A stretch of DNA of 64,000 nt from positions 7,850,745 to 7,914,744 of the forward strand of contig OZ025876.1 of NCBI GenBank assembly GCA_964019415.1, read 5' to 3'. Both the position numbers and the translations under genes were made by a program. The DNA comes from Ianthella basta. Taxonomy: Eukaryota; Porifera; Demospongiae; Verongiida; Ianthellidae. Shown here in pieces: positions 833-64,000 of the stretch. Position 1 is the first letter of the stretch. Each line of letters begins with the position of its first letter. Under the pieces are notes generated by a model. It saw only the letters and a program-made list of their open reading frames with translations. It did no database searches and had not been told where the DNA came from.

Positions 833-7138
<6,306 letters not shown>

Positions 7139-13500: not shown

Positions 13501-15219
13501 ACTGCAGACTGTGGGTCAGAGTACCTCGGGCTAGAGTAGCCTTTTCTCTTGCACTGCTGAGTACACCTCTCACAGTGTAGGCTGTCAACCAGCATAACAC
13601 AGGCCAGATGGTGGCTGTCAGAACATGGTGGCCACGGGTTTGGTGTCCACTGGCCCGAGCGTGTGAGTATGAGTAACTAGCATGTATGATGAGCCGGACT
13701 CAGTCAGGGCTAGGCGTCTTATCTTGCGTCAACTGCGGGAGGAGGGTACGGGGGTGGAACTGGTTGAATCCTTGACACATGCTTAGCCGGTGGGTGCCGG
13801 CGGGTTTTACAAATGTAGTGGGAAGGGAGCGCTACAAATTAGCCTCCACGCACCAACCATCTTGTGTCAGGCTGTTTGTACGTGTGTAACGAGAGAGAAT
13901 CCCCTAACAATTCTCTCCACTGTGACGTCATTGTAGTCCCAAGAAGCAAATCGTGCACCACTAAGACAGGGAATGGGAGTCACCTCAAGAGGAGAAGTGC
14001 TCTCACTCTGGCTGTTGGTGCAGTGAATTCCTAAAATCTTCAGTTCTAGTGAGTGTCACCTGTGTAACTATCGTCCCACGAGTCGCAAGTCCTTAGACTC
14101 ACCTCAGCAACCTGGTTTTGACAGTGACAACCAGCTACAAAACCTGTTGCACCATATGCACAGACAGTGATAGCCTTGTGGCAATTAAGGCTGACTGTAG
14201 CCTAGTTACAGAAGATGCCGCTAAGAGATATAGTGCTATGGTTCCCTGCACTGGTGAGGGGAAGGCGGGAGTGGAAGGGCAGAAAAGAGAGAGAAGGGAT
14301 GGGAGGGACTAGCCTTACATAGTGAGGCCTATTTCATATTGGAATATTAGGTCGGTACATTGGCATACACTGTGTTATACTGGTTGCCAACTCAATAGGG
14401 CTTCCTGCCCCCTACCAACTGAGACACCAATACTGGTGTAGTTGGTGGGTCTAGCATAATATCCAGTGATTACCATTCAATCAATTGCCCCTGCAGTTGA
14501 TAACTGCAAACAATTGTCCCCCTTTCAATGAAAATGCTGTTTAACTGATAGGATTGTAATAGCAGCGTTAGTGCAGTGATCCCTGTCTTGTTCCAGACGG
14601 AGGTAAGGGGAGCCATCCAACTGCTCCCCTAATACATTCACACCACAACCAGCAACACCACCATGGTCACCCTTCCAGTAAGGCCACTGGTGGAACAAGT
14701 GGCTGGAAGACTTGTTTGACATGTGACACCCCGTACTCATCAGTGGATTTGGGGGCGTGTCCCAAGTGCTGCCCGAGACAATCATGTAAAAGTGGGTGTG
14801 GCAAGCCAGCATTCTATACCATGGACCTGGGCTCATTTGGCTACTGCAGTGCTGAGTGTCGGGACAGGTGTGAACTAGAGAGTGCCAAGAGTGAGGTGAG
14901 TAGAGAACTGGAGGAGTTTGAGGTAATCCCTGGAAGCACCAAGACACCTGCAAAGGAGGCTGTCAGCCACAATGCAACACCTCATGTGCAGCCCCTCACC
15001 AGGCCCAGGCGTAGGAGTGAGGACACGCCCACCATTGTAGGTGCTACTTGTGAGGCACCTCCCACTCAGCAATCTACTCCACCACAAGAACAAAGGACTG
15101 TTAGTGTCCATTGCTATAAAGTGTCCCTAGGGGCTGTACGTGCAATGTCCTTCTATGACAGTGGAAAACTACAGACAGTGAGGGGAACAAAGGGGGTGAG
15201 CTCATTATTAACTGGTTAA
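7544..15219 (+). CDS. Gene B: TKL-like kinase with coiled coil and Z2/Z6 zinc modules
   Basis: Exons 7544-8365 (kinase), 9440-10225 and 10402-10455 (coiled coil), 11650-11785, 12000-12167, 12964-13152 (Z2) and 14597-15195 (Z6) join with matching phases. The kinase has a glycine loop (RGSYGAVY), lysine 40, HRDLKPEN at about 139, DFG at about 159 and MPPEAL. The HRDLKPEN form is usual for Ser/Thr-specific TKL kinases. The start follows AAC and gives MAEAELPPKP, as in the other copies. The coiled-coil exon has four 35-residue repeats. The end is uncertain: reading through the donor after 15195 gives TAA at 15219, but the phase-0 donor could also splice to the PDZ exon at 18757 of gene C, making one long kinase-PDZ transcript. 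Exon 14597 may instead belong to a broken Z1 gene whose first exon is the relic at 13973. Confidence 0.72.
9735..10150 (+). repeat. 105-bp (35-residue) coiled-coil repeats in gene B
   Basis: Four near-identical units containing TQLEASKRELETSK and HTRTAADLRTA occur in tandem. Gene A has a single unit at the same place (1118-1240), so the unit count has changed between paralogues. Confidence 0.85.
10607..11212. mobile_element. 606-bp TA-flanked MITE
   Basis: The ends are inverted repeats: CCATATAGTTTCTAAT on the left and the complement of CCGTATAATTTCTAAT on the right. They are flanked by TA at 10605-10606 and 11213-11214. The corresponding intron of gene A (near 1690) lacks it, giving an empty site. 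The TA duplication suggests mobilisation by a Tc1/mariner-type transposase. No coding sequence is seen inside. Confidence 0.8.
11350..11493. repeat. Fold-back element in gene B intron, paralogue of 1821-1974
   Basis: The left arm AAGTTCAATGGTTCAGAGTG is complementary to the right arm ending ACATTGAGTCT. The right arm holds CTGATGA, AGGCC/GGCT, GAAA and an ATGTT/AACAT stem, a better hammerhead-like arrangement than in the gene A copy. Confidence 0.55.
13253..13880 (-). pseudogene. Degraded copy of gene C' (Z1/Z6 small protein)
   Basis: The C-terminal Ser-rich tail (ESSSSSTLRRSSSLSSIASL) is conserved with gene C', but the Z6 cysteines are mostly lost, part of the second exon is missing and about 40 bases of the Z1 exon including its start are deleted. 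It lies at the same relative position to a kappaB/CRE motif as C' does. Confidence 0.75.
13895..13930. promoter_or_regulatory. Relic kappaB-18-CRE element
   Basis: GAGAATCCCC (one base off the kappaB form) is followed after 18 bases by a perfect TGACGTCA at 13923-13930. It lies between two pseudogene relics, mirroring the promoter at 16381. Confidence 0.55.
13973..14166 (+). pseudogene. Broken Z1 first exon
   Basis: It starts ATGGGAGTCACCTCAAGAGG and keeps fragments matching CSHPGC and TPQQPG, ending at CAGACA before a damaged donor. Internal deletions and stops break the frame. It matches the first exon of gene C; the following Z6 exon at 14597 is intact, but no PDZ exons follow. Confidence 0.7.
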
Positions 15220-16359: not shown

Positions 16360-16380
16360 CTCTCTGTGTGTGTGACGAGA

Positions 16381-16416
16381 GGGAATCCCCTAGCAATTCT
16401 CCCCACTGTGACGTCA
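16381..16416. promoter_or_regulatory. kappaB-18-CRE composite in the bidirectional C'/C promoter
   Basis: GGGAATCCCC at 16381-16390 fits the NF-kappaB consensus, and TGACGTCA at 16409-16416 is a perfect CREB/ATF palindrome, with 18 bases between them. The start codons of C' (16359, minus) and C (16487, plus) flank it. Confidence 0.75.
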
Positions 16417-20586: not shown

Positions 20587-20816
20587 TAAGGTAAACCGGG
20601 GTAATTCCGTCACTCGAGTCTGCAGCTACTTATTGAGAAGGAGTGCGCCCACTCCCGCTTAAGTTTAAAGAGTGCAGTAGATATGTTGTAAAATAGTGGG
20701 GTTGTGCTGAGCTAAAAGCCTACCGCGAAGGAAGAAGAGTCGAGACAAAACCCTAGTGACGGAATTACCCTAGTGACGAAATTACCCCGGTACCTTATAC
20801 TGCATATAGCGAAGAG

Positions 20817-20827
20817 GGGAATCCCCT
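20817..20827. promoter_or_regulatory. kappaB-like site upstream of gene D
   Basis: A perfect GGGGAATCCCC palindrome lies 45 bases before the gene D ATG. No CRE is present at the usual spacing. Confidence 0.65.
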
Positions 20828-23334: not shown

Positions 23335-23470
23335 ACTCCTCTCTCAGCTCCTCACTTCATCAGCGGCTGTCCAAGTTTGTTCTGTCCACTGCCATCACCA
23401 CCATCACCCCAGTAGGAGTCATGGATTGTGTGCTCAACCAGTTTGTAATCACCCGCATCCTATCCTACAC
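23335..23470 (-). pseudogene. NADAR C-terminal fragment
   Basis: On the minus strand this resembles the end of the NADAR exon (the SRDSYWGD region followed by KLGQLL-like codons) but covers less than a quarter of it and has mutations. It suggests that a NADAR gene once stood here on the minus strand. Confidence 0.7.
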
Positions 23471-25962: not shown

Positions 25963-27135
25963 CGTGTGCGTGCATGGGCGCATGCGTGCGTGCGTGCAAT
26001 ATCACAGCTGTATGTGTTCTATACTCAGTTCCCTCACAAAGTCAATAGAAGGAAAAAGCAATAGAATTTGTGTTTCTGAGTCTTTGTGTGTGTGTGTGTG
26101 TTGTGGGGGACTTGGAGTGAGTGTGAAGTAAAGGGACTTCCCTAATATTTCTCATAATATGATATTATCGCTATCCAATCCATATATAAGTACTTTCAGT
26201 CTGTGGTTGCAGTTGGGTATACCATACAGGTCTTTCAAAATGGCTGTACCATGGCAGGTGCAGGTGCATGCAAAGCAATTTAGTGTGACAAAATGCAAAT
26301 TCATATTTATCTCAAAGGCTAAAAGTGACAGGCACTATCTTTACACCATTAAGTATTCATTCCTCCCTATGGGAGATATACTAGCTATCTACTCCCATGC
26401 AGGATATGCTTCACTCTACCTATGTACTTTCTCTTGCCATACTTGCCTTCAGTGCCACAAAATGGGCTCCTTCCTTCAACAGTGAGTAAGAGGAGAAGGG
26501 ACCACGCTCCTCGTCTTGTCCTGGACAATGATCGAGAAATCAAGTGTGCCTTCCTAACAAGGTGGATCAAGGCCCCACCCAAATGCGAGCCAGCTGAAAT
26601 CAAGGGGGTCTTTCGCATTGAGAACCCGGTCTTGAAGAGTAGGTTTGACCAATATTGTGCCACCCTTCCCTCCCCCAATGTGAACTGGCATTATCATGGG
26701 ACAGCCATAAAGTGCAACCTCCTGCAGTCTAATAAGTTCTGTAGTGATTCATCATGTGGGATCTGTGGTATTTGTCAGGTTGGGTTTGACAAGGCAATGA
26801 TCGGAAAGTACCCTGAATCAGTATCAAATGTAGGCAAAGCATTCTACCTGGCTCTCAATTCATCCAGATCCCACAAGTACACACTGGGCTTTGGTGACAT
26901 GCGTGCACTCCTCTACTGCCAGGTTGCCCTTGGCAACCCCTGTTTTGCAACCCAGTCAGACAATACTATGACATCCCCACCCCTTGGGTACAACAGTGTG
27001 TATGTTCAAGTTGGCACAGAGTACAACTGGAACTGGAATGAGGTGGCCATTTATGGGGTGTTGGAGGCCATTTTGCCAAGGTACATTATAGTCTATCAGA
27101 AGGATGGCATTGGCAAATTGCGTAAAGATGGATAG
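23622..27135 (+). CDS. Gene E: TKL-like kinase fused to a PARP catalytic domain
   Basis: Exons 23622-24437 (kinase), 24818-25036 (coiled coil), 25824-25878 and 26453-27135 join in frame to give 590 residues. The kinase has RGSYGAVY, lysine 38, HRDLKPEN at 137 and DFG at 157, so it looks active. The last exon encodes a PARP-type fold with YHGTA (His), AFYLALNSS (Tyr) and NEVAIYGVLEAILPRYIIVY (Glu), a complete H-Y-E triad. A cysteine-rich insert (CSDSSCGICGIC) between the His and Tyr motifs probably binds zinc and recalls fungal PARP-like proteins. The coiled coil is short, lacking the expanded repeats of B and G. The product may link phosphorylation to ADP-ribosylation; target and chemistry are unknown. 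A MITE fills intron 2. Confidence 0.85.
25112..25700. mobile_element. 589-bp TA-flanked MITE with AGGCCGGG subrepeats
   Basis: The ends TCGTATATGTCTGTATAGAGG and the complement CCGCATATGTCCAAATAGAG are inverted repeats flanked by TA. Three copies of an about 38-base unit (AATAGAGGCCGGGTCAAAAA...) occur near the right end. It is related in style to the element at 10607. Confidence 0.65.
25902..25960. repeat. (TG)n microsatellite
   Basis: A pure TG tract of nearly 60 bases lies in the last intron of gene E, followed by degenerate TGCG units. Confidence 0.95.
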
Positions 27136-27823: not shown

Positions 27824-27840
27824 TGTATGTGTGGCAAGGA

Positions 27841-27876
27841 GGGAATCCCCTAGCAATTCTCCCCATTGCGACGTCA
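27841..27876. promoter_or_regulatory. kappaB-18-CRE composite upstream of gene F
   Basis: GGGAATCCCC at 27841-27850 is followed after 18 bases by CGACGTCA (one base from TGACGTCA) at 27869-27876. The ATG is at 27957. Confidence 0.7.
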
Positions 27877-42823: not shown

Positions 42824-42834
42824 GGGGAATCCCC
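42824..42834. promoter_or_regulatory. kappaB-like site upstream of gene I
   Basis: Perfect GGGGAATCCCC, 125 bases before the ATG at 42960. No CRE occurs at the usual distance. Confidence 0.65.
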
Positions 42835-42959: not shown

Positions 42960-48435
<5,476 letters not shown>

Positions 48436-48910: not shown

Positions 48911-50124
48911 CTAGGGGACATGCCCTCCTGTAGCTGCCTCCACCTCCTTCCTCAGCTCCTCCCTCAGCTTCATCAGCAGCTGTCCAAGCTTGTTCTGTCC
49001 ACTGCCATCACCACCGTCGCCCCAGTAGGAGTCACGGCTCGTGTGTTCAATCAGTTTGCGCTCACCCGTATCCAATAGCAACCGCCTGAGACGCTGGTGC
49101 TGTGTGAACTTGGCATACAGTGCGACATACATCACATCATCCTTGACCTCCTCCCAGTCACTCCTCCTCCACTGCAGTCCAAGGACAGGAGTGCGGGAGA
49201 TGTCAAATGCTTCCCTTGGGGTCTTGCTCTGTTGGATGGCGTCAAAGAGGGGAGTGCCGATGTACTTCTGAGCTTGGAAGTAGTTCTCTGATGTGGCCCA
49301 AAGTCTGCCGTCAATCTGGAGAGGAGCCTGATAGAAGTTGGTGAACTCGTAGTAGGAGTCATGTTTGTGGTAGAACCTGATTGGGTGTGTCCCTCTCTGT
49401 CGGGTGTTCCGCTTATCAAAGTTCACAGAGTTACCATGGTTACGTGAGTCACTATGAGAGCTCAAATTAGAACGCTGCTGTATCCCAGACTTGTCTATAA
49501 TATACAAAGGAAGTGAACTCCAGTGACATTTCTCCCCACCCCCACACAAAGTGCTGAACAAACATCAACAATGACTGAATCGCAATGAATACACCCACAC
49601 AGTGTGGGTGGAGGTGGAGGTACTAGGGGGTGTGGCCCTACCTGTGGGATGATCGACATGAAGAAAGTGATGACCTAGTATGTGTGGGGTGAAGTGATCT
49701 GCACTTAACCGCTAAAAGCTCACCTCTGCCCTTGCCTCTGCCACTTCCCTGGACACCACTGTGCTCCTTAAACTCCCTCACTCGACTCTCTTGTTCAGTG
49801 TGGTGCACTACACAGCAAGCTAGGACCCTCCCATTATTAACACAGTATATGCTGTCAATCACACAGAGAACAAGTACGTACCTTTCTGGACAGTACTGTG
49901 CTGCTTCCCCTTCAAGTCTGTCTTGCCCTGCTTCTGCTTGCGCGAGTCTAGCCCCTCCCCCTGCCCCACCCCCTGGCACCTTGTGTCTTGCTCTCTACCA
50001 GTCACTGCACACATAGTAGAACAATTAGTGTGAGTGCATTAGGACATGAGTACACACCACACTGTACGTGAGAGTGGGACTCGTGGTGATTATATTTGAC
50101 ATCACCACTGGAGTCTGGTCTTAA

Positions 50125-50211
<87 letters not shown>

Positions 50212-50644
50212 GCTTACCAGTCCTCCGCTCTCCACTAGCCAAATCCCGAGGAGCTGTCTTGTTCTTCAACTGTGAGCCTTGCCTCCTCCCCTCCCTCCCA
50301 GCAGTAGCCTCACTGCTGGCACGAGCAGACATGTGCGCGGTACGACCACCGTCCTTGCCAGTGTTGGACATTGGAGGCGCCTCCAACTGTATGGGCGAGT
50401 GGGTTTTAACACTTTGCGTGGTATCCGAGCGAGAAGAGTCCTCTTCCATCATTCCAACACGACCTGGTGAGGTATCATTCACCGTCGTAGCCACTTCCAT
50501 AGCGTTAATAAAATCTTCAGAGCTTTCTACACCGTCCGCTACTTCAGTTCGAGAGGTGAACGGCAAGCAGTTCAGCCGTCTAGCCAAAGCGTGACACGCT
50601 CTGCGTACAGCTTTACAGGCTTTCTTACAGCAGCAGCAGTACAT
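48911..50644 (-). CDS. Gene K: NADAR-domain protein with Cys-rich N terminus
   Basis: Exons 50644-50218, 50004-49882 and 49494-48911 join in phase 1 and give 377 residues. The N terminus (MYCCCCKKACKAVRRACHAL) is Cys-rich and could be lipidated or metal-binding. A Ser/Thr-rich linker and a Gln/Gly-rich exon follow. The NADAR exon has FYHKHDSYYEFTNF, ATSENYFQAQKY, SYWGDGGDGSGQNKLGQLLM and ends after TGGHVP. NADAR enzymes hydrolyse ADP-ribose from modified guanine or from riboflavin precursors, depending on the family. Between exon 2 and the NADAR exon, decayed Z4 (49740-49850) and Z5 (49560-49640) exons remain but are out of frame, so the protein has lost them. It is transcribed divergently from the PARP gene J, with 280 bases and one kappaB site between the start codons. 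Confidence 0.8.
50126..50208. repeat. (AC)n microsatellite in intron 1 of gene K
   Basis: Pure AC tract of about 80 bases beside the exon 1 donor. Confidence 0.96.
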
Positions 50645-50756
50645 GACTTCCCATCCCAGATTTTGCCTTTCAACTATACCACAGTTGTGATTGCGCGGGA
50701 CAACCTCTGCAACGACACACGAGGGTGTCGACCTCTCTATGCAAGGGAGTAGCCGA

Positions 50757-50767
50757 GGGGAATCCCC
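50757..50767. promoter_or_regulatory. kappaB-like site between genes K and J
   Basis: Perfect GGGGAATCCCC lies 112 bases upstream of the K start and 157 bases upstream of the J start. No CRE is found at 18 bases. Confidence 0.68.
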
Positions 50768-50924
50768 TAGCAATTCTCTGAACTACACGTGCACGCCACA
50801 GCAACGAACGTACTAGCACACTAGTCTCGCGAGCCAGCCCGAGACTACTAACACGCGTAAACGTGGACTCAGCGAAGACTGTAGTTGGGCCTGTTGGCGA
50901 ATCGGTTTTAAGACGACAAAAGAA

Positions 50925-53900
50925 ATGGGAGTGGATTCTAGAGGCGTTCGTCGTGGAGCGTGTCGTCATCCTGGGTGTTGCTGTGGAGACTTTAAAAAAG
51001 GCTCCGGTACAGTTAAGTGTACCGAGTGTAACCATCCTCCTACGAACCATAAGGTACGCCATTGCCCTGCAGTGGGACAGTGTAGTGTGAGGCTGCTTTA
51101 GTGCGCTGGTGCTGTAAGCAGTTATGGTCTCAATGCTCTGTAGATAAGAGGTGAAGAGTGTTCACATGTGATGATGACATCAACACCAAAGCAGACTGCG
51201 TCTTCAGCATCTCCCAAAGGTGAGTGTAAATGTTGTCGAAGCATAAATCTATTTAAGTGTGAAGGGCTCAGCTGGGGCTATTTTCGTCCCCAGTCTACTT
51301 GTGGTTGCCATTTTAAATTGGCATGGCCAAGATTAAATTGCTGGCTGGAAGAGGGCTATGGATATGACTAGGGTGATGACAGGAGTGAAGCATATGTGAT
51401 GGGCTGTGATTACAGGATGGGTTTGGGAGTGTAGTTTGGTAGGCTAAGGTGATGTAGCAAGGAAATGTACGTATATCACACATAAAGACACACCTGACCA
51501 CAACTTTCACTACGACCTTGTCTAATTATAATATTGCTAGAGTATTCCTATAAATGTATTCTATATCCTTATTGTGTGTGGTATGTGTAGTCTGCATATG
51601 GTAGCTATCTGTGCTACATACATAACTTTGTACATAATACCCTGTGGACCTCACGCAAAGGCTATGTACTCGAGTGGGCTCATGCAGGCTAGTCCCAATC
51701 TATGTCATGTGAGGACTCGTGAGAGAACACTATCCCTCAGTGGCCATTTGTGCGGCCATAATGTTACAGTATGATTCTGCCCTATTTCTGCTCCCCCAAA
51801 CATTTCACGGCTGTCTGACTCCTGCTGTCAGTGCCTGCAGTACTGCAGTGTTCTTGCCAAGAATCATCTCTCGCTCTGTCCCCCTCTCATTCACTGTGTG
51901 GTGTGTTCAGGTCCTAAACCTGCTCCAGGTGGCACTGTTGGCATGGAGGTGCATCCCATACATTCCTCTGTGGGTGGGGATGGAACAACATCAGGGAATA
52001 GGAGTGGCCAGCAATTACTGAGCCTGCCCAAGCCACAGTCAGATAGCGGCAGTGTGGCCGCTATCAGGGAGAATGAGGAAGGGAGACATGGCCCAGTGCT
52101 GATGGACACAGCACCTTGTGGCGTCATCGATAGACAAGGGAGAGCAGGTGAGCCCGCTGTGTTGCCCCACTCTCTGCACTGCGCATGCACTCAGACCCTG
52201 ACAGCCCGTTTACACTACGCAGAGGAACGGTTCTCATAACCGGTTCCGGAACCGTTCCACTATGGTGGTATATATTGATCGTGCAAATCTACTGGTGGGT
52301 GTGGCCCATGTCACACAATACCAGGGGGTGGGGCAATCTGTTGTCAATCTATAGAGTTAAGTGAAATGCCACTGTTGTGAATCAAGGTAGTAAATGTCAT
52401 CTTGTTCCATACTTAGTCACACCACCTCAAAGCCCCAGTGCTGAGGACTCGCTCTCTTCAGTGAAGTGTTTATACTGTGACAAGCAATTGCTTGTAGAAG
52501 AAATCAGACAACGTAAGGCTGGAGGAGAAGTTCTAGTGTGTGATGCGTGCAGAAAAGCTCACCTGAGCTGTGTACAAGATGACGACGACGACGACGACGA
52601 CGACGATGATGATGATGATGATGATTACTTGGATGCAGCCAGTACAGACACACAATTGAGTCCTGATGTTGTGTCTAAAGGACCAATGTGTAAGCTACCA
52701 GGGTGCAACCAGAGAGCACAGGTGGAAAGTGGAAAGTACAATGGATTTTGCAGCAAAGGCCATTATCAGGTGTATAGCATGATAACACCATCACCTGTGT
52801 CACCAGTGCCAACCACATCTGATAAGTCACCCATCTCATCCACAGGTGGGTGACATGTAGTCAAACTGTGCAAGTGTATCACATGTAATTGTAATTGTAG
52901 TGCATGTGTGTTCTGTCTCCAGTTCCCTCCCAAAGTGGTGAGGCCCCTACCTGTCAGTACCCTGAGTGCAGTGAGGTGTGTGCAGTGGATGGTAATGGGA
53001 GGGTCCTAGCTTGCTGTGAAGTGCACCACACTGAACAAGAGAGACAACCGAGGGAGGTTAATGAGCACAGTAATGCTCAGAGAAGTGACGGTAGTGTTTG
53101 GGGAGCTGACAGCGGCGTTCGGGGAGCTGACAGCAGTGTTCGGGGAGCTGACAGCAGGGTTCGGGGAGCTGACAGCGGTGTTTGGGGAGCTGGCAGTGGT
53201 GTTTGGGGAGCTGACAGCGGTGTTCGGGGAGCTGACAGTGTTGAGAGAGCTGGCAGTAACAGTGGAGGTAAGCTATACTTAGTCGAACAGTCCTTGGGTA
53301 ATCAAACCTCAGCTAGCCTGTAAATCAGTAGACAGATGTTAGTTGTGAGTTTTATTCCCAAACGTTCTAGAACTGTCGTCAGTGGTAGATCAAAGTACAA
53401 GAAGTGGTGGCTTACATATATACACAAACAGTGGGGGAGGGACACTGTGGGAAAAAGGTGGGTGAGAATACAGGTGGTTACTTGGGCATATAGGTTTACA
53501 ATCCAATCCAATCCATTAACTATGGGATGGGCAATGAATACAGAGTGAACAGCAGTGGTGTAAAGGGACGGGGGGGGGGGGGGGGAGGGGGGAGGCAGGG
53601 GTAATGGTACCACCATTATTGGATTGGATTGTAAGCATATGCCAAACAACCACTTGTATTCCCGCCTCCGTTTTCTCCCGCTGTGCCACTCTTCCCCACT
53701 GTGTATTTAAGTAAGCCACCATGTGTACTTTGATCTACCACTGATAAAGGCCTTAGACTGGGCCGAAACGTTTGGTAATAAATTCCTTTGTGACAACAAA
53801 CATCTGCCCATTGATTTCTTGTCTAGTGGACTTCCCATTGCGCAAGAATGTCTACACCTAGACACATAGAGATTTTCATAGTTGAATGGTTGGCTTCACA

Positions 53901-56262
53901 CCAAGCGAACATGGGCAGGCACTGCTGAGGAGGACCTCTCCAGTCCCACACACCATGCTATCTCACTCTGTTGTAACATCCCCCTTGCTTCACAGGTAGA
54001 GACAGGGGCCACACCCCCCAGCACCGCCCACCTGTACCCACTCCCAGACGTAAGATATGTAAGCTCCCTGGATGTGAGCGGCCATGTTATGTGGAGAGAG
54101 ACGGACATGTCCGTGAATTCTGCGGGCACACTCATGCACAACAATACCAAGCCGAGCAGACCAGGAGCAGCAGGGCAGTGCAGAGGCAACACAAAGAAGA
54201 GCAGAAAGGAACAGGATGGTTTGGTGCGTTCTTTCTGTGAGACTACAGTGGATATACGAATTCATTATAACTTAGTTTTTGTACTACTCGATCAGTTAGT
54301 TCATTTGCATGAACCGACAGGAGTCCATTCACTATCCATGTGTTGATACAACATTCTTTATTTAGGCAAAGTTTGGAAATCAATTTGGGGTTCCAATCCT
54401 AACTCCCATACCAATGACAGTGAAGACAGCAGTTTTAATGAGGCCAGTGCAGACATGCAATTGAGTCCTAATGTTGTGTCTAGAGGACCACAAAGTGATG
54501 GTGATGCCACTAACATTTCAGAGATGGATGCAGGTGGAGTCAGCGTGGAGGGGAGGAGAGCTACTAACCTGAGGAAGAAACAACCTTCAAAGCTTAAGCC
54601 ACGGCCAGCAGACATGATATGGGGAACAGCCAAATCACGCACAGGTAGGTGCTACTTTACAGTAAATCTACTTTTATGTGTCATGTGCCATGTCACTGTA
54701 GTGTGCTTCTTCTCCAGGCCCTTCCCAAAGGGATGGTGTTGTCCCTAGCTTTTTAAAGAAGGAATCAGGTGGAGTCAGTGTGGAGAGGAAGGCTTCTAAC
54801 CAGAGGAAGAAACCTCCTTCAGTGCTTGAACCACCCACAGCACACGTGTCACACAGGATAGAAAGATTACTAAAGTCATCCACAGGTTGGTATTTGTGTA
54901 AGTGCATGCATGGGTATGCAGAGAGGGGAATCTCCAAATAATTCTCTTTACTGTGACATCATTGCACTCTTATCCAAAGGTACACAAGTGAATGCAGCTA
55001 TGGGTCAAGCAGGAATAGGTGTCAGTTCTAAAGGCATGAAATGTGGAGCATGTTCCTGCGAAGGCTTTCAAAGTTCTCCTGGCACCAATCTGTGTTACGT
55101 GTGTAGCCATCACCCAACAGCACACATGGCCTTGCACTCACCTCTGCAACCTGACTTCACCAGTGACACAAGCACAACTCTGACAACTGTCAGGACTTCC
55201 AACGCAGATAGTGAGTGGTATGTAGTGTGTGTGTGTGTGTTGTGGTGCCAGTTATTTGCCTTTGTGTTTGCTCACAAATCGTAAACATGAAGCCCTAGTC
55301 ATGGGACTATCACATTACACTTCAAAATGGTGCTGGTGGTCACGGCTGGTTTCTTGTTGTACTGTATGAGCCAAGTAGGCATATGTACATATCTCACTTG
55401 TGAAGGTCACTGCGAACACTTCTGTACAGCAGAGACATACATACACAGCACTGTCGCATACTCTATACAGCATATTACCAGGGATCAAACAACTTACTGC
55501 ACCGTGAGAGCCCCCATCACCCAAAGGTTGTTCTCATGGCATAGTTCACTGGACCTTTCCTGTCTCTTGTCTTACTTGTCTCCAGGTGCACAAGATCTGG
55601 TCCTTCCTCCTCCGGCAGCTAGGGAAGCAGAGGCTCGTCTTGTCTTGGACAATGATGATGCAATCATACAAGCCTTCTTGACAAAGTGGACCAAGAGGCC
55701 AGAGAGGAAACCGCAGCCAGCTGACATCAAGGGAGTGTTTCGTATTGACAACCCAGCCTTGAAGAGAAAGTTCGACCAATATTGTGCCACCCTTCTTTCC
55801 TCCAAAGTGGAATTGCATTATCACGGGACGGCGATGAAATGCAACCTCCTGCAGTCTCAGACGTTCTGCAGTGACACAACTTGTGGAGTTTGTGGGATCA
55901 GTCGGGATGGGTTTGACAAGACAAGGATTGGGACACATGTTGATTGGTTCAAGCGCTTCGGCCATGCCTTCTACCTGGCTCCCAACTCATCCAAATGTCA
56001 TGAGTACACACTGGGCTTTGGTAACCTACGTGCACTCCTCTACTGCCAGGTTGCCCTTGGCAACCCATATTACACACGCTCTGACCTGGAGAAATGCCAA
56101 TCCCCACCTGAAGGATGTCACAGTGTGTATGGTGAGGCTGGTAGGCACCACAGCAGAAAGGGAAGCTTGAACTACGATGAGGTGGCCGTTTATGTGTCAG
56201 AGGCCATTTTGCCAAGGTACATTGTAGTCTATCAGAAGGACGGCATTGGCGGCTTGCTTTGA
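50925..56262 (+). CDS. Gene J: multi-zinc-module PARP protein, paralogue of gene I
   Basis: Ten exons join in frame: 50925-51053, 51144-51219, 51911-52147, 52417-52845, 52923-53267, 53996-54223, 54366-54644, 54718-54885, 54980-55210 and 55586-56262, giving 932 residues. Order: Z1 (MGVDSRGVRRGAC with CTECNHPPTNHK), linkers, Z2 with a 16-Asp run and Z3 in one exon, Z4 plus heptads (VRGADSG), Z5, two linkers, a second Z1 and PARP. Z2 (KCLYCDKQ...CDACRKAH) and Z3 (CKLPGCNQRAQVESG) are intact, unlike in gene I. The PARP triad is present in YHGTA, AFYLAPNSSKCHEYT and NYDEVAVYVSEAILPRY; one residue is missing compared with gene I (VAIYGVPEA), close to the triad Glu. It is paired head to head with gene K. 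Likely an inducible ADP-ribosyltransferase. Confidence 0.83.
53090..53245 (+). repeat. 21-bp coding repeats (VRGADSG) in gene J
   Basis: About seven 21-base units (GTTCGGGGAGCTGACAGC plus three bases) encode a heptad linker after Z4, at the same place as the VQGGDSG array of gene A but with a different unit sequence. Confidence 0.85.
53351..53787. repeat. Long fold-back element in a gene J intron
   Basis: The left part (CAGTGGTAGATCAAAGTACA, then AATCCAATCCAATCC) and the right part (GGATTGGATTGT... TACTTTGATCTACCACTG) are inverted copies around a G-rich centre. The right end has CTGATAAAGGCC, TGGGCCGAAAC and GTTTGG, similar to the hammerhead-like ends at 1929 and 11448. Confidence 0.75.
54926..54961. 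promoter_or_regulatory. Internal kappaB-18-CRE relic before the second Z1 exon of gene J
   Basis: GGGAATCTCC at 54926-54935 and TGACATCA at 54954-54961 each differ by one base from the consensus and keep the exact 18-base spacing. They lie in the intron before exon 54980. Confidence 0.55.
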
Positions 56263-56990: not shown

Positions 56991-57023
56991 TCAGGGTCGT
57001 CTTGACGTGTGCCCGTGGAGAAA

Positions 57024-57059
57024 GGGAATCCCCCTAACAAGCCTCTTATTGTGACGTCA
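57024..57059. promoter_or_regulatory. kappaB-18-CRE composite upstream of gene L
   Basis: GGGAATCCCC at 57024-57033 and a perfect TGACGTCA at 57052-57059 are separated by 18 bases; the ATG is at 57101. Confidence 0.75.
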
Positions 57060-58882: not shown

Positions 58883-60536
58883 TCAGTCTAAGCTATTCCC
58901 AGTGTCCAGCATATCTGTACGGCTGTTTGTCTTTGCCATGGACTGTGGCCCTGCACCACTCTCACTCCTATGATTTCTTCCTCTATGAGATATGTGCTTT
59001 GCTGTATCTGCCTCCACCTCCCTCCTCAGCTCGTCCCTCACCTTCATCAGCAGCTGTCCAAGCTTGTTCTGTCCACTGCCATCACCACCGTCACCCCAGT
59101 AGGAGTCATGGCTTGTATGCTCAATCAGTTTGCGCTCACCCGTATCCAATAGCAACCACCTGAGACGCTCGTGCTGTGTGAACTTGGCATACAGTGCGAC
59201 ATACATCACATCATCCTTGACCTCCTCCCAGTCACTCCTCCTCCACTGCAGTCCAAGGACAGGAGTGCGGGAGATGTCAAATGCCTCCCTTGCAGTCTGG
59301 CTCTGTTGGATAGTGTCAAAGAGGGGAGTGCCGATGTACTTCTGAGCTTGGAAGTAGTTCTCTGATGTGGCCCAATCTCTGCCGTCAATCCGGAGAGGAG
59401 CCTGATAGAAGTTGGTGAACTCGTAGTAGGGGTCATGTTTGTGGTAGAACCTGATTGGGTGTGATTCTGAACTGGATTTAGACCTAAAAAGTTTCCCAAG
59501 TTTGCCTGTAAAATACGAAGAAATTAACTCAATAAATCATAATTCTCTCACACCCATATTAACTAGCTCAAAATGAACACATTTACATGATCTTCACAGA
59601 ATGAACGCACCAAAGAATGACCATCTTGTTCTTTGCTGCCCATCTTCTCTTTGTTGGCTTTGCACTGCCCTGCTGCTCCTGGCCCGCTCGGCTTGGTATT
59701 GTTGTGCATGAGTGTGCCCACAGAAATCATGGACACGTCCATCTCCCTCCACATAGCATGGCCGTTGGCATCCAGGGAGCTTGCATATCTTACGTCTGGG
59801 AGTGGGTGCAGGTGGGCGGTGCTGGGGGGTGTGGCCCCTGTCTCTACCTGTGAAACAGGGAGGGATGATACAAGAGTGGGATAGGGCGGTGTATGTTGAA
59901 TGATATGTGCAATAAAAGGTCTTTTACATCACATGGCACACTTGGTCATGATCTCTTGGTATGAAGCTATCTATCATTACTAAAACGTGGAGCAAGTACC
60001 TCTCTGAGCAGTACTGCGCCGCTTCCCCTTGACTCTAGTCTTGCTGTGCTCCTGCTTGCGTGAGTCTAGCCCCTCCCCCTGCCCCACCCCCTGGCATCTT
60101 GCGCTTTGCGCTGTAATATTGATACAAGTTGAGCTAGGACCTGAATATGCACCACACCGTGTATGAGAGTGGGACGAAGTAATACAGAAGTGATGATTGA
60201 CAGAGTCACTAATCGGAGTCTGGGCAGCTGGAGGCATTTAACTACACACACACCACTTTGAATCCTACCCTTCATTCTGTGTGGAGGCAGTCACTCACTA
60301 CTGTGCGAAGTACCCAAGTAAGTAGCGTCCTCTTCCACCACTTCAACGTGGTCTTGTGAGGCGTCGTTGGATGTCGTGCCCGATTCCAGCAGCTCTGCCG
60401 TATCATCGGTTACTTCAGTTCCAGAGTTAAACAGCGTGATCAGCCATCTAAAGAAAACGTGACACGCGTCGCGTACAGCTTTACGAGCTTTGTTACAACA
60501 ACGCAAACAAGTGCAGTGCACTTTACACCCTCTCAT
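58883..60536 (-). CDS. Gene M: Z5-NADAR protein
   Basis: Exons 60536-60299, 60140-60000, 59847-59611 and 59505-58883 join in phase 1 to give 412 residues. The Cys-rich start (CKVHCTCLRCCNKARKAV) matches gene K. A Gln/Gly-rich exon (CQGVGQGEGLDSRKQ) follows, then an intact Z5 (CKLPGCQRPCYVEGDGRVHD and FCGHTHAQQY), then NADAR with FYHKHDPYYEFTNF, ATSENYFQAQKY, SYWGDGGDGSGQNKLGQLLM. The NADAR exon has no in-frame Met until late, so it must be spliced rather than start on its own. Gene K is the same design without Z5. The initiating ATG at 60536 is the first in frame after the promoter motif at 60605. ADP-ribosyl hydrolase activity is inferred from the family. Confidence 0.83.
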
Positions 60537-60604: not shown

Positions 60605-60638
60605 GGGGAGTTCCCCTATGTTCTTTCCCATGACATCA
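60605..60638. promoter_or_regulatory. kappaB-like and CRE-like sites upstream of gene M
   Basis: GGGGAGTTCCCC at 60605-60616 contains a consensus kappaB site of a different half-site type, and TGACATCA at 60631-60638 is one base from a CRE. They lie 70-100 bases upstream of the minus-strand ATG at 60536. Confidence 0.6.
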
Positions 60639-61018: not shown

Positions 61019-64000
61019 TTAATCTACACAAGTCCCATCATGTGAGGTCTCTGGACAGCTGACCTTTGCCATGGAATGTGGCTCAGCACCATCTTCAGGC
61101 TTTCGCTTCCTGTCCCCCTTCGCTTTCTTCAGCTCCTCTCTCAGCTCCTTCCTCAGCTTCATCAGCAGCTGTCCAAGCTTGTTCTGTCCACTGCCATCAC
61201 CACCGTCGCCCCAGTAGGAGTCACGGCTTGTGTGTTCAACAAGCCTGCGATCATCTGTATCCAACAGCAACCGCCTGAGACGCTCGTGCTGTGTGAACTT
61301 GGCATACAGTGCGACATACATCACATCATCCTTGACCTCCTCCCAGTCACTCCTCCTCCACTGCAGTCCAAGGACAGGAGTGCGGGAGATGTCAAATGCC
61401 TCCCTTGCAGTCTGGCTCTGTTGGATGGCACCAAAGAGGGGAGTGCCGATGTACTTCTGAGCTTGGAAGTAGTTCTCTGATGTGGCCCAAACTCTGCCGT
61501 CAATCTGGAGGGGAGCCTGATAGAAGTTGGTGAACTCGTAGTAGGGATCATGTTTGTGGTAGAACTTGATTGGCTGTGGTCCTCTCTGTTGGGTGCTCCC
61601 TGAGCTCAAATGTATCCCAATTTTGTCTATGGAAAATGAAAAGAATGACACATCAACATGGACACATGTACTGAGCTTCTATGCCTTCAGAATCCCAAGA
61701 AAGCACTCGCCCACACCCATAAGTGAAGATGAATAGTATAATTATGAGCTAGGTCAATATGAACATATCTGCAGTACATGGTCTTCACAGAATGAACGCA
61801 CCAAGTAACCACCATCCAGTTCCTTGTTGCTTATTTTCCTTGTGTTGGTTCTGTACTTCCCTGCTGCTCCTGGTCTGCTGGGTTAGGTATTGTTGTGCAT
61901 GAGTCCACCCACAAAAGTCATGGACACGTCCATCTCTCTCCTCATAACATGGGCGCTGACATCCAGGGAACTTACATATCTTACGTCTGGGTGTGGGTGC
62001 AGATGGGAGGTACCAGGGGGTGTGGCCCCTGTCTGTACCTGTGAAGCAATGGAAGGATAATACAAGGACTGGATGGTACACATGGGACATCCACTGGTAC
62101 GAAATCAACTCTCATATCTCACCTCTGCTAATTCTGTCACCGCCTTGAATAGATGCTTCAACTGCCTGAATACTGCTGTCATTTTCTTGAGCACTACTGT
62201 CACTATCCTGAGCACCACTGTCACCTCCCTGACCTCCACCATCACTGTCCTGAGCGCCAACGTCACCTACCTGAGTGCCACCGTCACCCTCGTGAGCACC
62301 ACTGTCACCCTCCTGAGTACCACTGTCACCTCCCTGAGCACCACCGTCACCTCCTAGAGCACCACTGTCACCTCCCTGAGCAACACTGTCACCTCCCTGA
62401 GCAACATTGTCACCTCCTAGAGCACTGCCGTCACCTCCCTGAGCACCACTGTCACCTCCCTGAGCAACACTGTCACCTCCTAGAGCACCGCCGTCACCTC
62501 CCTGAGCACCAAGACTGTCACCTCCTAGAGCACCGCCGTCACCTCCTAGAGCACCACTGTCACCTCCTAGAGCACCACCGTCACCTCCTAGAGCACCACT
62601 GTCAACTCCTAGAGCACCACCGTCAACTCCTAGAGCACCACTGTCACCTCTCTGAGCAACACTGTCACCTCCTAGAGCACCACCGTCAACTCCTAGAGCA
62701 CCACTGTCACCTCCTAGAGCACCTCCGTCACCTCCCTGAGCAACACTGTCACCTCCCTGAGCACCACTGTCACCCTCCTGAGCACCACTGTCACCTCCCT
62801 GAGCACCACTGTCACCTCCCTGAGCACCACTGTCACCTTCCTGAGCACCACTGTCACCTCCCTGAGCACCACTGTCACCTTCCTGAGCAACACTGTCACC
62901 TCCTAGAGCACCACTGTCACCTCCTAGAGCACCACTGTCACCTCCTAGAGCACCACTGTCACCTCCTAGAGCACCACTGTCACCTCCCTGAGCACCGCTG
63001 TCACCTCCCTGAGCACCACTGTCACCTCCTAGAGCACCACTGTCACCTCCCTGAGCACCACTGTCACCTCCCTGAGCACCACTGTCACCTCCTAGAGCAC
63101 CACTGTCACCTCCTAGAGCACCACTGTCACCTCCCTGAGCACCACTGTCACCACTATTCTGACCACCACAGTTACCTTCCTGGCTACCATTTTGGAGTGG
63201 AACTGGAGACAAAACGCATTACATTGATATTAAATATTTGACACACTTTGTCATGTACTGAGTATTGCACTCACCTGTAGGTGATGTGGGTGACATGCGT
63301 GAACTTTGAGACATGGGCAGCATTGGTGACACAGGTATCTGTGTCAACATGCTAAACATCTGATAATGGCGTTTGCTGCAAAACTCCTTGTACTCTCCAC
63401 TCTCCGCTTGGGCTTGCTCGTTGCACCCTGGTAGCTTACACTGTGGTCCTTCGCACACAACTTCAGGACTCAATTGTGTGTTTGCAGTGGTTTCACCCAA
63501 GACAACCTTACCATCACTATCATACTGTAGACATCTCAAGTGAGCAGTTCTGCACACATCACACACTAGAGCTTCTCTTCCATCCTCACGTTGTCTGGTT
63601 ACTTCTGCTGACAGTGGTATGCCACAGTCTACACACTTCACGGGAGATAATGAGTCCTCAGTACTGGGGCTTTGAGGTGTGGTGACTAAGTGTGGAACAA
63701 GATGCTTATGATGGAATAGACAATAGCAGCACATCTTCTAGCTCCATAGCTCGATAACAGTTCAGCACAGTGCTTTGTTTAATAGCACTCAACACAGTAT
63801 GTGCTGGCAGTCACACAGTCAACAAGTACCTCTCTGATCATGAGCGGTGTCAGGCCACTTCTCCTGGCTGCTTGTCTTGTCCTGCTGTTGCTGCTGCTGC
63901 TTGCCAGAGTCCTGCTCCACCCCCTGCCCCTCCTCCTGACACTCCATGTCTTGGACTGCACCTGTCTGCACCTCCATGTCAACAGCCTCACCTGGAGCAG
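61019..64000 (-). CDS. Gene N: zinc-module, long heptad-repeat and NADAR protein (5' end outside window)
   Basis: Minus-strand exons 64000-63830 (open to the right), 63685-63275, 63202-62123, 62038-61802 and 61626-61019 join in phase 1, with about 835 residues visible. Order: Gln-rich linker (GKQQQQQQDK), Z2 (KCVDCGIPL and CDVCRTAHLRC) with Z3 (CKLPGCNEQAQAESGEYKEF), about 40 heptads of GAQGGDS/GALGGDS, Z5 (CKFPGCQRPCYEERDGRVHD) and NADAR (FYHKHDPYYEFTNF, ATSENYFQAQKY, SYWGDGGDGSGQNKLGQLLM). The heptad exon lacks the Z4 finger that starts the matching exon in gene A. The opposite strand is also open across the heptads, but only the minus strand has flanking zinc modules and phase-matched splice sites. 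Confidence 0.83.
62290..63150 (-). repeat. 21-bp coding minisatellite (GAQGGDS / GALGGDS) in gene N
   Basis: About 40 tandem 21-base units lie within the exon 63202-62123. Two unit types alternate in blocks (CTGAGC and TAGAGC on the plus strand), suggesting higher-order duplications. Gene A has about 15 related units. Confidence 0.92.

Follow-up and report, generated by a model that had tools for sequence, protein, structure and literature searches.

Within a 64,000-nucleotide stretch of the genome of the sponge Ianthella basta (the window; contig C9, positions 7850745-7914744), gene J, which encodes a predicted PARP, and gene K, which encodes a predicted NADAR, stand head to head around one exact copy of the kappaB-type site GGGGAATCCCC. 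We tentatively favour a reading in which both genes belong to a kappaB-controlled family, the site between them works in both directions, an ADP-ribosyl writer and an eraser would be made together, and K would hydrolyse a J-type product. This reading starts from the two gene models, their domains and catalytic residues, modules common to PARP and NADAR gene regions, an upstream element that recurs, and ratios of nonsynonymous to synonymous substitution (dN/dS) below 1. The window belongs to a 209-Mb genome of 96 contigs, in which 34 Wnt-domain matches (best 1.8e-66) and three Rel-homology matches, confined to one locus (C7:6.11 Mb), mark the genome as that of an animal with a putative NF-kappaB-type factor. 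NF-kappaB has been described in sponges (PMC13042239).

Gene models and catalytic domains of J and K

The start codons of J and K are divergent and separated by a 280-bp gap with a single exact site in it, as the original prediction had stated. Both models are predictions from sequence alone, built by hand from reading frame, splice signals and paralogs. J runs from an ATG at 50925 to a stop at 56262, with phase 1 at all introns past the first, and K from an ATG at 50644 to a stop at 48911. For the other genes, exons only were located, and these were assigned by strand and order. The window holds three PARP exons (26581, 47878 and 55708, all on the plus strand) and four full NADAR exons (4499 on the plus strand; 48944, 59018 and 61133 on the minus strand), which fits the earlier assignment of PARP to genes E, I and J and of NADAR to genes A, K, M and N. 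Genes I (PARP, plus) and K (minus) are tail to tail, 475 bp from stop to stop. The protein encoded by the first exon of K is similar to its counterparts in NADAR genes M (45%, E 1.4e-14) and N (35%, E 5.4e-08), and has no real match to that of NADAR O (23%, E 0.04). The predicted N-termini of K, M and N are Cys-rich (MYCCCC at 50644, MRGCKVHCTCLRCC at 60536 and MGCCHCC with its ATG at window-equivalent position 64835, respectively) and could be acylation signals. A CA repeat (window ~50127-50209) lies at the 5′ end of the first intron of K and reads as poly-CV in the raw open reading frame.

J passes the Pfam threshold for PARP (PF00644; 37.8 bits against a cut-off of 26.7), and its H-Y-E triad, the residues by which PARP catalytic domains are defined, is complete. 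Among solved structures, tankyrases are nearest to it in sequence (E 1.2e-06). A low-confidence AlphaFold2 model of the domain (predicted local distance difference test (pLDDT) 59.2) retrieves PARP3 and tankyrases as the best Foldseek matches (E 4.7e-06, template-modelling score ~0.5). No Pfam family besides PARP, macrodomain included, matches J at E up to 1, and J is therefore without an ankyrin or SAM match. Among the J-type PARP copies in the fetched loci, His and Glu are present in 12/12 and Tyr in 9/12. The dN/dS of J is 0.33 relative to I and 0.50 relative to E (no significance test). Three PARP copies carry Cys in place of the catalytic Tyr (C9 7369645, C12 4469257 and C12 4467866); their mutual dN/dS is 0.17-0.29.

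K passes the NADAR threshold by a wide margin (PF08719; 131 bits against 35.1), and its closest PDB match is E. coli YbiA (2b3w, E 3.1e-39). It has the YbiA-type E...K...E arrangement, formed by the Glu and Lys of the SE..FQAQK motif and a further Glu aligned to the catalytic Glu of YbiA; residues were mapped onto the published numbers by motif and spacing, with their roles taken from PMC11543638. The predicted presence of a writer-type and an eraser-type domain on the two sides of a kappaB-type site in an animal is borne out at the level of Pfam matches and candidate catalytic residues. Across the 11 full-length NADAR copies of the fetched loci, the first Glu is kept in 10, the Lys in all 11 and the last Glu in 9; a twelfth row, a 35-aa remnant, is counted apart from these. 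The dN/dS among NADARs K, M, N, O and A is 0.22-0.52 (ten pairs, likewise with no significance test). The NADARs at C9:7392075 and C9:7400984 have Tyr instead of the last catalytic Glu, and the latter also lacks the first Glu; kinase-type matches are found in the same region at 7389755 and 7393447.

Recurrence of the kappaB-type element and of the modules

The site between K and J is a near-palindromic 11-mer (reverse complement GGGGATTCCCC), 112 bp from the K ATG and 157 bp from the J ATG. We scored the 250 bp upstream of the first exons of NADAR genes K, M, N and O and of module-4 exons, a duplicated exon type (MGVDSRG...), including those before the NADAR copies of two paralogous clusters, C9a (C9 7.364-7.374 Mb) and C12 (C12 4.462-4.474 Mb). 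A kappaB-type site with up to two mismatches is present at 10/14 module-4 exons and 4/4 NADAR first exons, and in 3.1% of 3000 random 250-bp stretches of the same loci. Module-4 matches number 15, from which the internal exon at 47431, with an exact site, was left out; NADAR A, the C9 copies at 7388653, 7392075 and 7400984 and the C8 copy have no identified first exon and stand outside the count. The mismatches are 0 for K, 1 for N and 2 each for M and O, and the sites of M, N and O lie at -80, -126 and -96, where none of the three genes faces a PARP. Because kappaB-type sites are also present ahead of NADAR M, N and O and of most of the module-4 exons scored, these data suggest that shared control of J and K is more plausible as a family-wide property. 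The kappaB site that was said to be common to J and K does lie between both starts, but it is not private to them, as it also occurs before M, N, O and module-4 exons; as a property of the K/J pair alone it was rejected.

In the window, GGGGAATCCCC has four exact places and, at up to one mismatch, 12 matches over the two strands (8 places), where 0.58 would be expected. All 8 places are upstream of module-4 exon copies, two of which are internal exons of I and J. Because one duplicated exon type lies behind every place, we rejected this excess as independent evidence for the J/K pair. The internal sites of I (47346-47356) and J (54925-54961) are possible promoters for short PARP isoforms. An in-frame ATG is found at 55000, near the internal site of J.

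In several copies, a site resembling the cyclic-AMP response element (CRE) follows the kappaB-type site at a spacing of 13-18 bp. In 114 kb, 7 places yield 9 such composite matches, whereas 20 Markov controls average 0.45 with a maximum of 2, and one further composite occurs in each of C9a and C12. The extended element GGGAATCCCCTAGCAATTCTC has 7 matches in the genome (up to three mismatches), 6 of them within the window, and its reversed control has 0. The order is CRE, kappaB, ATG in NADAR M and O and kappaB, CRE, ATG in 5/6 module-4 exons with both a kappaB (up to two mismatches) and a CRE (up to one); the sixth, 16359, is opposite because it reads the back side of an element common to 16359 and 16487. 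Such polarity would be consistent with an ancient element that worked both ways between a NADAR and a module-4 gene, and K/J may have survived from that arrangement. Not every weaker copy agrees: the module-4 exons at 7837642, 7371816 and 4471432, with three-mismatch kappaB sequences, have the CRE first.

PARP and NADAR gene regions also have modules in common. M1 and PGC1 of J recur in the gene regions of NADAR N and O, and M3 is found in two PARP genes (I and J), precedes NADAR A, M, N and O on the same strands, and lies near the PARPs and NADARs of the C9a and C12 clusters. Pfam has no family for M1, PGC1 or M3 in J, and we infer from the spacing of their Cys and His residues that they may bind zinc; a structure model of M3 reaches pLDDT 68.6 and a predicted template-modelling score of 0.41. 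Among 11 NADAR matches in total, 10 sit no more than 22.1 kb from a PARP match, and the eleventh is on C8, where the PARP listing shows none. Adjacency and common modules together suggest one PARP/NADAR pathway.

In both C9a and C12, a plus-strand NADAR meets a minus-strand PARP tail to tail (with two minus-strand PARP copies in C12), and a minus-strand PARP lies beside a plus-strand one. The plus-strand module-4 exon before the NADAR, which we assume to belong to the NADAR gene 3 to 4 kb away, has a kappaB-type site at -93 or -92. The gene so defined faces a divergent module-4-like exon at 240 or 241 bp, followed by M3 on the same strand; this exon is 45% to the C9a module-4 copy (E 1.7e-11) and 36% to that of J. 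No PARP was found behind the divergent start within 2.8 kb (C9a) or 4.6 kb (C12). PARP-NADAR adjacency and kappaB-centred divergent starts do recur across clusters.

Table 1 Predicted features of the window (positions in the window; strand + or -, or a point where none is assigned)
Feature	Position	Strand	Remark
Gene J	50925-56262	+	ten exons, 932 aa, in-frame hand model
J exons 1-5	50925-51053, 51144-51219, 51911-52147, 52417-52845, 52923-53267	+	
J exons 6-10	53996-54223, 54366-54644, 54718-54885, 54980-55210, 55586-56262	+	
Gene K	48911-50644	-	exons 50644-50218, 50004-49882, 49494-48911; 377 aa, in-frame hand model
kappaB-type site GGGGAATCCCC	50757-50767	.	exact, between K and J
J PARP catalytic domain, H-Y-E triad	55705-56259	+	PF00644; aligned to tankyrase-1
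K NADAR domain, YbiA type	48944-49384	-	PF08719; E. coli YbiA 2b3w
J modules M1 and PGC1	52416-52781	+	also in NADAR N and O gene regions
J module M3	53995-54183	+	CKLPGC..RPCY..FCG.THA
PARP domain of gene I	47878-48432	+	tail to tail with K
PARP domain of gene E	26581-27132	+	
NADAR domain of gene A	4499-4939	+	
NADAR domain of gene M	59018-59458	-	
NADAR domain of gene N	61133-61573	-	start codon at window-equivalent 64835, beyond the window
kappaB-like site (2 mismatches) and CRE composite	13894-13930	+	
kappaB-type site and CRE between divergent module-4 exons	16380-16416	.	ATGs 16359 (-) and 16487 (+), 127 bp apart
kappaB site upstream of module-4 exon	20816-20826	+	
kappaB-type and CRE-like sites upstream of module-4 exon	27840-27876	+	
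kappaB site upstream of module-4 exon 42960	42824-42834	+	exon assigned to gene I
kappaB site upstream of module-4 exon 47431	47346-47356	+	exon internal to gene I
kappaB-type and CRE-like sites in J intron 8	54925-54961	+	before internal module-4-type exon
kappaB-type site and CRE upstream of module-4 exon 57101	57023-57059	+	
kappaB-type (2 mismatches) and CRE-like sites upstream of M ATG (60536)	60605-60638	-	no PARP opposite

Explanations for the pair

In the favoured reading, J and K would be members of an expanded animal family in which the same Cys/His-rich modules accompany differing C-terminal enzymes, PARP or NADAR, and in which many promoters bear a kappaB-type site, in some cases alongside a CRE. 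A Rel-family factor, together with a CREB/ATF-type factor where the CRE survives, would induce the family in response to microbial or stress signals, and the site between K and J, working both ways, would lead to co-production of writer and eraser. J would then attach ADP-ribose from NAD+ to a target recruited by its modules, and K would hydrolyse the N-glycosidic ADP-ribose product, so that the modification is limited or cleared. Induction, bidirectional use of the site, enzymatic activity and the action of both enzymes on one substrate are the inferred parts of the scheme. If it holds, NADAR would join macrodomains at immune-type ADP-ribosylation loci.

Several observations weigh against this scheme. 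The original prediction named absence of the pairing in close relatives as counting against it; for the within-genome paralogs, C9a and C12, this absence holds, as a head-to-head PARP/NADAR combination was not found there, and K/J is the one instance seen. K is without M1, PGC1 and M3 and has only a damaged M2 copy, excluded from its model, and neither K nor J has a CRE (up to one mismatch) among the 250 bp before its start. Four of the 14 module-4 exons lack a kappaB-type site (7837642, 7371816, 4471432 and 7313422), and two of these, C9 7371816 and C12 4471432, belong to plus-strand PARP genes. The upstream counts are also non-independent: 16359 and 16487 have one site between them, that of K is that of J, C9a and C12 are duplicates, and the M and N promoters align. 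When the 8 sites are compared without gaps, identity is 93% within the 11-mer, 61% and 47% in the two adjoining blocks, and 26-32% in the outer flanks; since the sites were picked by their kappaB match, the 93% is inflated and only the neighbouring blocks are unselected. GGGGAATCCCC is moreover common genome-wide, with 544 occurrences against 36 for the reversed control, and is therefore not peculiar to the J/K gene family; in a sample of 20 of the 544 sites, one pair of loci only has sequence in common (E up to 1e-3). Finally, all three PARPs with Cys for the catalytic Tyr adjoin NADARs.

It is possible, if somewhat doubtful, that J and K share a regulon and act on separate substrates, with elements and modules common by descent and not owing to any erasure of the J mark by K. 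J would modify proteins, in a tankyrase-like or mono-ADP-ribosylating manner, and K would act on guanine ADP-ribose from foreign toxins or viruses, on damaged riboflavin intermediates or on soluble ADP-ribose products. This fits the nearest solved relatives of the two proteins, tankyrases for J and YbiA for K, and a PARP lies opposite only at K among the six NADAR starts viewed (K, M, N, O, C9a and C12). Bacterial and plant NADARs have been described on riboflavin intermediates, with eukaryote roles called unclear (PMC11543638, PMC11125620). The closeness of 10/11 NADARs to a PARP and the modules common to both gene regions speak for a single pathway instead. A more ambitious version of the kappaB-controlled scheme, close to the circuit first proposed, seems improbable to us: in an NF-kappaB (with CRE) regulon, J would place ADP-ribose on guanine in nucleic acid, K would remove it, and the same modules would steer both. 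DarT1-linked NADARs and an oomycete YbiA-type NADAR hydrolyse guanine-ADP-ribose (PMC11543638). If true, animal immunity would include a circuit that reversibly ADP-ribosylates nucleic acid.

We consider it unlikely that the arrangement is an accident of tandem duplication in which only J makes use of the kappaB element and K just happens to lie upstream. The K/J site sits in a block common to other module-4 exons (on the AATTCTC side) and therefore came with the J exon type, and the K/J combination is unrepeated in the paralogous clusters; against this, NADARs M, N and O each carry a kappaB-type site of their own and face no PARP, and the C9a and C12 NADAR genes also carry one, if the module-4 exon is theirs. 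That J, K or both are decaying copies or mis-modelled is very improbable. The missing modules and damaged M2 copy of K and the NADAR remnant at 23355 would agree with decay, but J and K retain open reading frames, phase-compatible splice signals and all catalytic residues, and dN/dS is no more than 0.52 among five close NADARs.

Known systems and neighbouring features

The closest precedent is vertebrate PARP9/DTX3L (with PARP14), in which an interferon-responsive bidirectional promoter is common to PARP9 and DTX3L (PMC13224862) and the macrodomains of PARP9 and PARP14 are described as hydrolytic (PMC11251020). J/K resembles it in having divergent genes around an immune-type element, here a candidate kappaB-type site in a 280-bp gap. 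PARP9/DTX3L has macrodomain erasers and a ubiquitin-ligase partner, whereas J/K has a NADAR of eraser type and a kappaB-type motif with predicted control; a PARP9-type macrodomain is absent from J in the Pfam search at E up to 1. The tankyrase catalytic domain is the best solved sequence relative of J and probably among its best folds, as judged from the low-confidence model, but J differs from tankyrases in having no ankyrin or SAM match.

Two bacterial systems also pair a NADAR with an ADP-ribosyltransferase. In DarT1-NADAR (DarTG1), the ADP-ribosyltransferase gene lies beside the NADAR gene (PMC11543638), as in K/J. DarTG1 is a bacterial operon with a DarT writer, whereas K has a PF00644 PARP neighbour on the opposite strand; the DarT1-linked NADAR has a catalytic Asp, whereas K has a Glu aligned to that of YbiA (KLIEHT), with the E. 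coli C7 NADAR itself left unaligned. Membership of K/J in DarTG1 was rejected on these grounds, the neighbour and the Glu instead of Asp. YarT-YbiA of myxobacteria likewise joins a YbiA-type NADAR to an ADP-ribosyltransferase, there the toxin; it is a bacterial toxin-antitoxin system with a DarT-unrelated transferase, and is set apart from K/J by its description (PMC11125620).

NADARs occur in animals, including porifera, where their roles, as in eukaryotes generally, are called unclear (PMC11125620). Antiviral responses of animals that are based on ADP-ribosyltransferases have been discussed, as have NADARs in RNA viruses of animals (PMC9503650), and PARPs in inflammation have been reviewed (PMC7050484). 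No animal gene pair of PARP and NADAR was recognised in the open papers covered, mostly as judged by their listing. NADAR genes that lie among PARP genes, with modules and a kappaB-type element in common, make the role of an animal NADAR concretely testable. NADAR relatives are found in viral contigs in 51/96 stretches, with best segments 26-50% identical. A search for a prokaryotic relative of the J-type PARP with two peptide patterns in genome contigs gave 74 stretches, none confirmed.

The NADAR remnant of 35 aa (window 23355-23459, minus strand) lies directly upstream of an opposite-strand kinase exon. The same cluster contains four plus-strand kinase open reading frames (window 7544, 23622, 31653 and 37889) near module-4 and Cys-rich CSE exons; one of the four was checked against Pfam and is a protein kinase, and the kinase gene boundaries are provisional.

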